Shown here piece after piece: positions 54,728 to 57,047 of a DNA stretch of 64,000 nucleotides. Positions within the stretch are counted from its first letter, which is position 1; the number at the start of each line of letters is the position of its first letter. This DNA comes from Histidinibacterium lentulum (GTDB lineage: Bacteria; Pseudomonadota; Alphaproteobacteria; Rhodobacterales; Rhodobacteraceae), in contig NZ_ML119084.1 in assembly GCF_003789055.1 (NCBI RefSeq), positions 1 through 64,000 on the forward strand. Direction: 5' to 3'. The notes under the pieces are model-generated. The model worked only from the letters and a program-made list of their open reading frames with translations. It did not search any database and had not been told where the DNA came from. A program made the translations under genes and the position numbers.

Positions 54728-54886
54728 TCAGGAGGTCGTCACAGGCACGCAGGTGCCGGCTTCGGTGTCGTAGATGCTGCCATCGGCGCAGGACATTGCC
54801 TGCTGTTGACCGTGGTCGCCCCAGCACTGGGCCGCGGCGAGGCCGGGCAAGAGCACGAGAGCGAGGACGGAAAGCGCGGTCTTTAT
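54728..54886 (-). CDS. Small secreted cysteine-containing protein with an apparent ATA start
   Basis: A 52-codon frame: KTALSVLALVLLPGLAAA looks like a complete signal peptide, followed by QCWGDHGQQQ and AMSCADGSIYDTEAGTCVPV with three Cys. No ATG, GTG or TTG precedes the signal sequence in frame. The codon at the right place is ATA, seven bases after a perfect GGAGGA. Relatives I know of from Rhodobacteraceae start with MKT or MKK and have the same C-terminal SCADG.x.D...CV motif. So either ATA initiates here, or the start was mutated and the gene is inactive. The protein would be periplasmic or secreted; no function is known. Confidence 0.6.
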   Translation of the reverse strand: MKTALSVLALVLLPGLAAAQCWGDHGQQQAMSCADGSIYDTEAGTCVPVTTS

Positions 54887-54940: not shown

Positions 54941-55435
54941 TCAAGTCGGACGTGCCGCGGGATGGGTCAGAGCCACGGACATGCGCTTGAGCTCGTCATG
55001 TGCCTCGGCAGAGAGCTGTCCTGCCTGCAAAGTGATCAGGTGAAGATCGGTCACCGTGCGCACGAGCTCGGCGATCTCGCGATCATCGAACTCACGGTCG
55101 GGGCGGGCGAGGCCTGCGACCGAGCGGCTCCCGCCCTCGTCGATGGCCACGGCGAGCCCGTAGGCGAGGCCGAAGTCGGCGCTCTGCGCGAGGACACCGG
55201 CAGGGTCGTCGAGGTCGGACCATCGCCGCCAGCCGGTTTGCGTGAAGCCGAAGCTGACGATCGGGTCCTGCATCACGAGCCCCTTCTGCGAGTAGAGATC
55301 GAGCCAGCGTCGGTCGTAGGTCTGGAACAGGAATGCGGGCGTCGTGTAGCGGATATGGAAGGCCATCGCGAAACCGGAGGGGCTGAGCGCGCCGAGCTGG
55401 GTGAGATATCGGTCGATTTCCGATCTAGAGCTCAT
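54941..55435 (-). CDS. LuxR-type protein with autoinducer-binding domain only
   Basis: A 164-residue protein made of an AHL-binding domain alone; the HTH that should follow is missing. The signature residues for AHL binding are all present at standard spacing: Trp44 and Tyr48 (RRWLDLY), Asp57-Pro58 (MQDPIV) and Trp72 (GWRRWSDL), plus the Gly-rich FGLAYGLAVAI. A C-terminal helix follows and the protein ends soon after. It is divergent from a full LuxR with a 135-bp gap. It could titrate AHL or form inactive heterodimers with the neighbour. Confidence 0.82.
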   Translation of the reverse strand: MSSRSEIDRYLTQLGALSPSGFAMAFHIRYTTPAFLFQTYDRRWLDLYSQKGLVMQDPIVSFGFTQTGWRRWSDLDDPAGVLAQSADFGLAYGLAVAIDEGGSRSVAGLARPDREFDDREIAELVRTVTDLHLITLQAGQLSAEAHDELKRMSVALTHPAARPT

Positions 55436-55460
55436 TTTTCGCCCCCTGCCGTTCTATCCG

Positions 55461-55511
55461 GTTGCCATACTCGCAAAGGACACACTAGGAAATCGGCCAA
55501 CAGTTGCCATA
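55461..55511. promoter_or_regulatory. Direct repeats GTTGCCATA in the LuxR intergenic region
   Basis: GTTGCCATA occurs at 55461-55469 and 55503-55511, 42 bp apart, which is about four helical turns and so on the same face of DNA. They lie between two divergent LuxR-type genes, where shared control would be expected. A true dyad lux box was not found in this gap. Confidence 0.4.
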
Positions 55512-55570
55512 GCGTATCGGCGTTCAACCGTGAGGGGTAGCTTGCAGCCGCCCCTGCCTGTCCTAAAGAG

Positions 55571-56185
55571 GTGTCCTTGGCGCGCCAGCTTACCCCCGAC
55601 GATCTGCGGATGCTGTCGCCCGGAGGACATTATGTTGCGCTCCGGCTGGGTTTCGCCTTTCCCATGGAGGAGATCAATCATCTCCCGCAGGACTGGGTCG
55701 AGCACTACACGACGCAGCGCTACATGCTGAACGACCCGGTCATCCGCTGGATCTACGCCAATACCGGCGCGATCCGGTGGTCGGACATCCAGCTGGACGA
55801 TCCCAAGCGGATCCTGGCGCAGGCGCGCACCTTTGGGCTGCGTTACGGGCTCGCGGTGAGCGTGTTCGACAACAATCCCGAGGGACAGCGGTCCTTCGGC
55901 ACCTTCGTGCGGGGGGACCGTGAGTTCAGCGATGACGAGGCGGCGGTGCTGACGGCCTGGGTCTCCCGCCGGCACATCGAGAAGGCGCCGCCGCGCAATA
56001 TCACCGACGCGGAGCTCGAGGCGCTGCGGATGGTCAAGGACGGGATGCGGCTCAAGCAGATCGCCCATTCCCTGGGCGTCTCGGAAGGGGCGGTGAAGCA
56101 GCGCCTGCGCAATGCCAAGCGCAAGCTCGGGGCCCAGACAGGGCCGCAGGCCGTGACGCTTGCGACGGAGTTCGGCCTGATCTGA
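55571..56185 (+). CDS. luxR: LuxR-family transcriptional regulator (AHL-responsive)
   Basis: A 204-residue quorum-sensing regulator. The AHL-binding domain has Trp42, Tyr46, Asp55-Pro56 and Trp70 at canonical spacing; the C-terminal LuxR-type HTH (NITDAELEALRMVKDGMRLK and QIAHSLGVSEGAVKQRLRNA) binds DNA. GTG start; a TTG two codons downstream has a better-spaced AGAGG and is an alternative. luxI lies 181 bp downstream on the same strand, so this is its likely partner. It would sense the AHL and activate luxI in the usual autoinduction loop. Confidence 0.9.
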   Translation: MSLARQLTPDDLRMLSPGGHYVALRLGFAFPMEEINHLPQDWVEHYTTQRYMLNDPVIRWIYANTGAIRWSDIQLDDPKRILAQARTFGLRYGLAVSVFDNNPEGQRSFGTFVRGDREFSDDEAAVLTAWVSRRHIEKAPPRNITDAELEALRMVKDGMRLKQIAHSLGVSEGAVKQRLRNAKRKLGAQTGPQAVTLATEFGLI

Positions 56186-56240
56186 CGTTTCCGGCCCGCT
56201 GCCCGATAGCGAAGGAAAATCGCGCGAGGCGGCGCGCGTT

Positions 56241-56258
56241 AACCCAAAATTAGGGGTT
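56241..56258. promoter_or_regulatory. Lux-box-like inverted repeat upstream of luxI
   Basis: AACCC-AAAATTAG-GGGTT is an 18-bp inverted repeat with five-base arms around an AT-rich centre. It is 109 bp upstream of the luxI ATG, in the 181-bp gap behind luxR. Canonical lux boxes are 20 bp and differ in sequence, so this is a positional candidate only. Confidence 0.45.
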
Positions 56259-56366
56259 TGCCCGCAGCGTGGCGTAGACAATCGCAGGTTGCTGGGGCGA
56301 TTGCAAAACAACCGGAAACAGTCAGACAGGCCGGCGGCCCAGCCACCCGCCGGTGAGGGGATCAAG

Positions 56367-57047
56367 ATGCACTATGTCACTTTCGGCTTTCGCACCCTCC
56401 ATGATCACGCGGCGGAGTATTATGACTATCTCGCCCTGCGGAAACGCTTTTTCGTCGATACGCTCGGCTGGTCGATCCCGCACGACGAGTGGGTCGAGAT
56501 GGACCAGTACGACAATCCCAAGGCGCGCTATGCGCTCGTCATCGGGGACGAGGGGCAGGTCCTCGCCGGGGCGAGGGCCCTGCCGACCAGCGCGCGCTGG
56601 GGCGACTTCTCCTACATGCTGCGCGATGCCCAGGACGGCCGGATCGGCGGCATTCCGTCGGACCTGCTGGGCGAGCGCGTCCTGCCCGACACGATGTACG
56701 AGTGCACGCGACTCGTCATCTCGCCGGAATTGAGGGGGATGCAGGCGCGGGTCGCCTGTCTGGGGCTGATCTGCCGCGGACTTGTGGATCTCGCGATGGA
56801 CGACGGGGCGACGGAACTGATGTCGCTGTCGAACCTGTGGCTCCTGCGGGCGCTGAAGTCGCTGGGCTATGACGCCGAGCTGATGTGCGATCCCTATGTC
56901 AATTGCGACGACGGGCACAAATACGCGGTGATGAAGATGTCGGCCATGTATGTGGATCAGTCCATGGCGACCGTCCGGCGAATGGCCGGCACCGCGGGGC
57001 CGTCTCGGCAGATGCAGCCGACGGTGCTGCACGCTCCGGCGAGGTAG
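56367..57047 (+). CDS. luxI: Acyl-homoserine-lactone synthase (LuxI family)
   Basis: A 226-residue AHL synthase that joins SAM and an acyl-ACP to make the signal. The invariant residues are present: Arg25, Phe29, Trp35 (LRKRFFVDTLGW), Asp46, Asp49 (MDQYD), Arg70 (AGARALPT), Glu112 and Arg115 (YECTRLV). Its sequence belongs to the roseobacter-type branch starting MHYVTF. The ATG follows GAGGGG. Acyl chain length cannot be predicted. It is the last gene of the plus-strand quorum-sensing unit and is followed by a terminator-like hairpin facing purB. Confidence 0.95.
   Translation: MHYVTFGFRTLHDHAAEYYDYLALRKRFFVDTLGWSIPHDEWVEMDQYDNPKARYALVIGDEGQVLAGARALPTSARWGDFSYMLRDAQDGRIGGIPSDLLGERVLPDTMYECTRLVISPELRGMQARVACLGLICRGLVDLAMDDGATELMSLSNLWLLRALKSLGYDAELMCDPYVNCDDGHKYAVMKMSAMYVDQSMATVRRMAGTAGPSRQMQPTVLHAPAR

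Follow-up and report, generated by a model that had tools for sequence, protein, structure and literature searches.

A conserved HTH-less neighbour of one LuxR class in the Rhodobacteraceae, probably a CerN-type AHL-dependent antagonist

Introduction

What does a protein with an AHL-binding domain and no DNA-binding part do when it is encoded beside a complete LuxR/LuxI pair? The question is raised by a locus in the first 64,000 nucleotides of contig NZ_ML119084.1 of Histidinibacterium lentulum (this whole stretch is referred to as the window), where a short LuxR-type gene lies next to luxR and points away from it. The initial annotation of the locus likened the short protein to the dominant-negative partners of Ti-plasmid systems and proposed that it acts as an AHL sponge or as a LuxR antagonist built into the switch, perhaps giving a threshold or a delay.

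A protein of comparable architecture was described in 2024 in Cereibacter sphaeroides (Hernandez-Valle et al. 2024, PMC11655674). According to the available part of that report, CerN lacks an HTH, requires AHL to bind CerM and takes it off DNA: the two proteins are pulled down together only when AHL is present, gel shifts in vitro show DNA released from CerM by CerN plus AHL, and the same combination lifts CerM repression in an E. coli reporter. CerM itself binds DNA without AHL. Mutants of cerN and cerI share a non-swimming phenotype that is suppressed by loss of cerM, and because CerN is in this way required for the quorum response its role is more than fine-tuning.

Results

A LuxR/LuxI pair with a divergent third gene

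The full LuxR, the LuxI and the divergent short gene of the initial annotation are all present as ORFs, and their domains were confirmed with Pfam (Table 1). LuxI matches Autoind_synth (49.1 bits), LuxR carries both Autoind_bind (67.3 bits) and the GerE HTH (35.2 bits), and the short protein matches Autoind_bind at 43.9 bits (cut-off 23). The LuxR start is TTG 55577 or GTG 55571, which gives a protein of 202-204 aa, and luxI starts at ATG 56367, the ORF list placing a TTG start at 56289. The gene order is acnA, lipid-A acyltransferase, fliG, the short gene and luxR in divergent orientation, luxI and purB. The short gene and the LuxR gene are adjacent, back-to-back as had been annotated, and divergent, a feature shared with cerN and cerM.

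Table 1. Features of the locus, in window coordinates.
Feature	Position	Strand	Details
Short AHL-binding-domain protein without HTH (CerN-like)	54941..55435	-	ATG start, 164 aa; ORF and Pfam
Full LuxR (CerM clade), ligand domain and GerE HTH	55577..56185	+	ORF and Pfam
luxI, LuxI-type AHL synthase	56367..57047	+	226 aa; ORF and Pfam
Divergent intergenic region common to short gene and luxR	55436..55576	.	141 bp
Predicted luxR promoter	55462..55490	+	TTGCCA (55462-55467), 17 bp, CTAGGA (55485-55490)

Between the short gene and fliG there is a small ORF (54728-54886, minus strand) that looks secreted, with a signal-peptide-like stretch. It has a strong ribosome site, GGAGGAG, followed by ATA in the expected start-codon position, and a Pfam scan of this region gave no match. 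Elsewhere in the genome, on contig C5 at about 143786-147208 (318-1013 and 1183-2040 of locus L001), lies a second LuxR/LuxI pair of another lineage. Its full LuxR scored 98.7 bits for Autoind_bind and 32.6 bits for GerE, and the adjoining LuxI 74 bits; this LuxR is the one further autoinducer-binding-domain protein of the genome besides the short protein and the LuxR of the window.

The short protein keeps a complete AHL pocket and has lost most of the HTH

The AHL pocket was defined by six positions of TraR, W57, Y61, D70, P71, W85 and G113, a list taken from the accessible portion of PMC11655674. By alignment all six (WYDPWG) are present in the short protein, as W44, Y48, D57, P58, W72 and G93, and the corresponding residues of the window LuxR are W40, Y44, D53, P54, W68 and G91. 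The two proteins are 38% identical over the ligand domain. Among 58 short proteins collected from related loci (see below), W57, Y61, D70, P71 and W85 are kept in 58/58 and G113 in 55/58. The retention of AHL-holding residues that had been noticed in the window therefore extends to the relatives, and because five of the positions are invariant there, the complete pocket of the short protein is more than chance. Their LuxR partners have W57 in 57/58, W85 in 56/58 and G113 in 57/58.

A Pfam scan of the short protein at E<=1 found no family besides Autoind_bind, which bears out the claim that it has no DNA-binding part. The same holds among its relatives: Autoind_bind was found in all 56 scanned (of 58 rows; L091 and L097, whose starts are uncertain, were left out), GerE or another named HTH family in 0/56, and the remaining matches occurred in one or two members each at E 0.014 or worse. 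The LuxR partners scanned (22 of 58 rows) had both Autoind_bind and GerE in every case. In the eight short proteins listed, the C-terminal tail can be aligned with the beginning of the paralogues' HTH and extends no further; the chain of the window protein ends behind the helix that corresponds, in the alignment, to helix 1 of that HTH. An AlphaFold2 model built from four sequences (pLDDT 77.5, pTM 0.79; below 50 pLDDT at residues 52-56) has the LuxR ligand-domain fold, with a last predicted helix, 143-157, at the HTH-start position. When the model was compared with the PDB, LuxR-type receptors were obtained throughout among the 50 matches listed, at TM 0.45-0.60 on the query.

The partner is the rule for one LuxR class

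Searches with the short protein, in which full-length LuxRs are counted in, matched 33/101 genomes at E<=0.001 (its own and 100 relatives) and 187/394 genomes at E<=1e-10 in a family sample of nearly one genome per genus. In a class-wide taxonomic sample, 2/289 genomes matched at E<=1e-15, both of them from the same family as the window (22 of the 289 rows are listed, 18 of these outside the family). As for a mobile origin, no tblastn match was obtained in 50,697 phage records, and a phage source was rejected. A plasmid source was rejected as well: 41/72,556 plasmid records matched, full LuxRs included and mostly from Paracoccus (22) and Cereibacter (10), all below 60% identity.

From the search matches, 60 loci were chosen for a short-looking protein and their ORFs were compared with the window proteins, start codons in the relatives being assigned by script. 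Three of them (L102, L107 and L110) proved to belong to a sister class and were moved to that set, and 58 loci, the window included, have an HTH-less protein with a LuxR nearby. The two genes are divergent in 56/58, a figure that does not describe a random sample because the loci were picked for looking short, with 89-169 bp between the assigned starts. A luxI match lies on the strand of LuxR in 53/58 loci and is absent from 5/58. Genes for purB, fliG or acnA are near the pair in 31/58; the other 27/58 have none of the three, so the pair persists where its surroundings differ.

A count that was not chosen for short-looking loci came from the LuxR side. With a profile of 22 LuxR partners, scores drop from 217.1 to 206.5 bits between their class and the sister class, and with the class edge drawn at this gap there are at least 84 class genes in 79/394 genomes, a lower bound because scoring covered just the best first-look candidates of each genome. 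On first listing a short gene was nearby in 73 of the 84, divergent in 70 of these; in the surroundings of the remaining 11, five have a divergent short gene and six do not. In total an HTH-less partner adjoins 78/84 class LuxRs, 75/78 of them divergently and in 75/394 genomes. The sister-class loci have such a partner in 0/24 cases, judged on flanks of at least about 1.2 kb, and an adjoining luxI in 22/24; the label 'gta' used here for this set is our own, after the orthogroups in the accessible part of PMC11655674, and applies to a tree without any named GtaR or LuxR1 sequence.

The six class LuxRs without an HTH-less neighbour in the DNA examined are L142 (3284-4060), L133, L136, L140, L141 and L143. 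The first of these sits in a genome taken to be C. sphaeroides. Conversely, L144 (3410-3952, genome G287) has an HTH-less short protein and no class LuxR within the 7 kb examined.

These counts bear on two alternatives. A truncated paralogue beside a LuxR gene is the expected look of a decaying copy, and the short gene might be a functionless duplicate on its way out. Pseudogene features, namely a relaxed or broken frame and scattered occurrence, are nevertheless not those of this gene: it forms one clade across the family, keeps its pocket and is intact in 78 loci, and dN/dS in seven pairs of short genes was 0.08-0.58, with dS near saturation in most. We therefore regard decay as extremely improbable. 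A complete pocket without an HTH is also what a sponge would need, one that binds and buffers AHL without touching LuxR, as the initial annotation had considered. However, a sponge need not adjoin one particular LuxR class, as the short gene does in 78/84 cases against 0/24 in the sister class, and CerN acts by contact in the published account (PMC11655674, seen in part), which together leave very little room for buffering as its function.

The two partners form separate groups across the family

In a ligand-domain tree of 140 rows, built without outgroups by a quick method with SH-aLRT as sole support measure, one branch separates the 58 short proteins from the rest (99); other branches do so for the 58 LuxR partners (99) and for the 24 'gta' rows (80). 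When two long outgroup rows were added, the LuxR partners were again a single group (100); both outgroup rows attached to the short set, which then needs two changes and is not a clean clade. Taken together, the trees suggest that loss of the HTH was one ancient truncation common to the whole clade across the family. One genome in the set, G055, has the order short gene, LuxR, second LuxR, luxI, which is that of cerN-cerM-cerR-cerI, and its LuxR partner has Phe at position 57; the genome is taken here for C. sphaeroides. CerN and CerM, as its short protein and LuxR would then be, join the respective clades of the window proteins with long branches, and the best pairwise identity of CerN is with the sister-class row L021 (41%). 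Distance correlations over 26 loci gave no partner-specific signal of co-evolution, at 0.42 for the short protein versus fliG and 0.28 for the short protein versus the LuxR ligand domain.

The same four-gene order, with a CerR-like second LuxR beside the pair, was also seen at L138 (2625-4549). At L139 (2452-4372) the short gene, LuxR and a CerR-like LuxR are found with no luxI in the 7 kb examined.

Another reading of the locus follows the TrlR/TraR precedent (PMC11655674 and PMC13043044, each available in part): LuxR would be activated by AHL, and the short protein would form dead mixed dimers with it, giving the higher AHL threshold or the delay that the initial annotation had in mind. Activation by AHL is possible, since the window LuxR and nearly all of its class keep a full AHL pocket. 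Against this, TrlR is a recent near-copy and the short protein of the window belongs to an old, separate clade; moreover CerM, the closest studied relative, is on DNA without AHL, and GtaR, of the same orthogroup as CerM, is relieved by AHL, as described in the part of PMC11655674 available. A TrlR-like mode of action is in our judgement unlikely.

A predicted luxR promoter close to the start of the short gene

The pattern [ACG]GTTGNNN-N17-NTANNN, directed toward luxR, occurs in 28/56 intergenic regions, against a mean of 0.6 and a maximum of 3 in 50 shuffle sets, figures to be read with the fact that the pattern was chosen after viewing the same regions. It begins 17-31 nt from the start of the short gene in 27 of the 28, points toward the short gene in 0/56, and gives 0-3 matches with spacers of 14-16 or 18-20. 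From its position in the window and in half of the relatives' regions, the predicted luxR promoter is placed just ahead of the start codon of the short gene, where a bound protein could influence both.

No operator was found at the locus: in a search for dyads in the 56 regions the best score, 6.13, equalled that of the shuffles (6.13), and the CerM motif was slightly above them, with a mean of 6.38 of 9 positions versus 6.17 (6.38 was reached by 1/100 shuffle sets) and a best match in the window of 6 of 9. Separately, the intergenic region of L064, a relative from the same genus, contains a perfect 16-bp palindrome, ATGGCAATATTGCCAT, a possible operator, and half of it, GTTGCCATA, occurs twice in the window intergenic region (55461 and 55503).

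Discussion

We consider it probable that the locus is a three-part quorum switch with a CerN/CerM-type, AHL-dependent antagonist pair. LuxI would make AHL, and at low AHL LuxR would occupy its DNA sites. The short protein would bind AHL in its complete pocket and, once loaded, would pair with LuxR via the retained ligand-domain and dimer-helix region; the resulting mixed dimer, with one HTH at most, would leave DNA, and the LuxR regulon would flip at quorum. Such an antagonist pair is supported by the shared clades and the published mechanism of CerN and CerM, by the pairing in 78/84 class LuxRs versus 0/24 in the sister class, by the kept pocket, by the lack of any HTH family in the 56 short proteins scanned and by the persistence of the pair in the 27/58 altered neighbourhoods. 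Of the roles first proposed for the short protein, that of a LuxR antagonist built into the switch fits best with CerN, a proven AHL-dependent antagonist of CerM. AHL-dependent pairing and loss of DNA binding have been demonstrated for CerN/CerM alone (PMC11655674, in the part available), and from that pair we infer AHL binding, pairing, direction of control and targets for the window locus. By the same precedent, the short protein would carry the quorum response.

Several observations count against an antagonist pair. On the sequence side these are the Trp of the window LuxR at TraR position 57 (Phe in CerM), the long branches of CerN and CerM, the identity of CerN with L021, the attachment of the outgroups, the failure to find an operator and the unspecific distance correlations. 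On the genetic side, the cerI cerN double mutant of C. sphaeroides swims a little, which its authors read as a possible stabilising effect of AHL and CerN on CerM (PMC11655674, available part). This last point favours a positive partner, in which the short protein would stabilise LuxR, help it fold or form a working mixed complex with it. The main CerN effects in that report are however antagonistic, and a positive role seems quite improbable.

The typical pair may differ from CerN/CerM in how AHL is perceived. The accessible portion of PMC11655674 describes Phe at TraR position 57 in CerM alone among six C. sphaeroides LuxRs, and its authors propose that this residue matters for the lower AHL affinity of CerM. 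With Trp in that position the window LuxR may answer AHL by itself, and if the Phe does matter for affinity, then a typical class member, with Trp57 present in 57/58 LuxR partners, may bind AHL in both partners. More tentatively, and with rather less confidence than in the antagonist pair itself, the quorum switch in much of the family might be ancestrally three-part, comprising LuxI, a LuxR on DNA by default and a dedicated HTH-less AHL receptor that strips LuxR off, with all three encoded at a single compact, divergent locus. With Trp57 so widely kept, its typical form would be a gate with two receptors, each half of the mixed dimer being able to hold the signal, and CerM/CerN would be derived, given the changed CerM pocket and the other luxRI alongside.

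The pair is of the CerN/CerM kind, and the present results widen the known range of that kind: in this LuxR class an HTH-less partner is the norm, and a finding from a single species becomes a conserved module, present in 75 of the 394 family genomes sampled. The accessible part of PMC11655674 describes conserved synteny for gtaR only, among the four species compared. Searches of the open-access literature turned up nothing in print on a wide distribution of CerN-like partners, on a single ancient truncation, on a luxR promoter immediately ahead of the short gene, or on such a LuxR partner that keeps the pocket Trp, unlike CerM. The results suggest that the AHL answer of this LuxR class may run through a protein-protein step; any model or reporter built on LuxR/LuxI pairs of this class should therefore include the third gene.

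Comparison with known systems places the locus as follows. TrlR of Agrobacterium Ti plasmids is a LuxR-type protein minus the DNA-binding domain that pairs with full TraR (PMC11655674, PMC13043044, available parts), and the short protein of the window is likewise a LuxR-type protein without that domain beside a full LuxR. To this extent the Ti-plasmid analogy drawn in the initial annotation holds. The analogy is remote, however: TrlR, at 88% identity to TraR, blocks a regulator whose DNA binding depends on AHL (PMC11655674, in part), whereas the window pair, at 38%, is not a recent near-identical copy and lies in a chromosomal-type neighbourhood, the truncation is apparently common to a whole separate clade, and CerN, the nearest relative with a studied function, acts against a regulator that holds DNA when no AHL is present. 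GtaR of Rhodobacter capsulatus and LuxR1 of Dinoroseobacter shibae share the orthogroup of CerM and CerN, as given in the available part of PMC11655674, and luxI usually adjoins at loci of this type (22/24 labelled 'gta'); they differ in that all 24 lack an HTH-less partner. The D topology of roseobacter luxRI (Cude and Buchan 2013, PMC3824088) resembles the window in having fliG upstream in opposite orientation and purB downstream, and two luxR loci are tabulated for 6/6 D strains. The portion of PMC3824088 available to us is silent on one luxR being without an HTH (the words 'HTH' and 'truncated' occur 0 times in it), and the short gene is a possible explanation for that second luxR. The closest counterpart remains CerN/CerM. 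The window pair has its own luxI behind it, whereas cerR-cerI, of another lineage, come after cerN-cerM, and position 57 of LuxR is Trp in the window, as in nearly all partners, versus Phe in CerM. Both systems have an HTH-less ligand-domain protein with a full pocket beside a LuxR, in the same two clades, and the divergent arrangement is found also in the genome taken to be C. sphaeroides.
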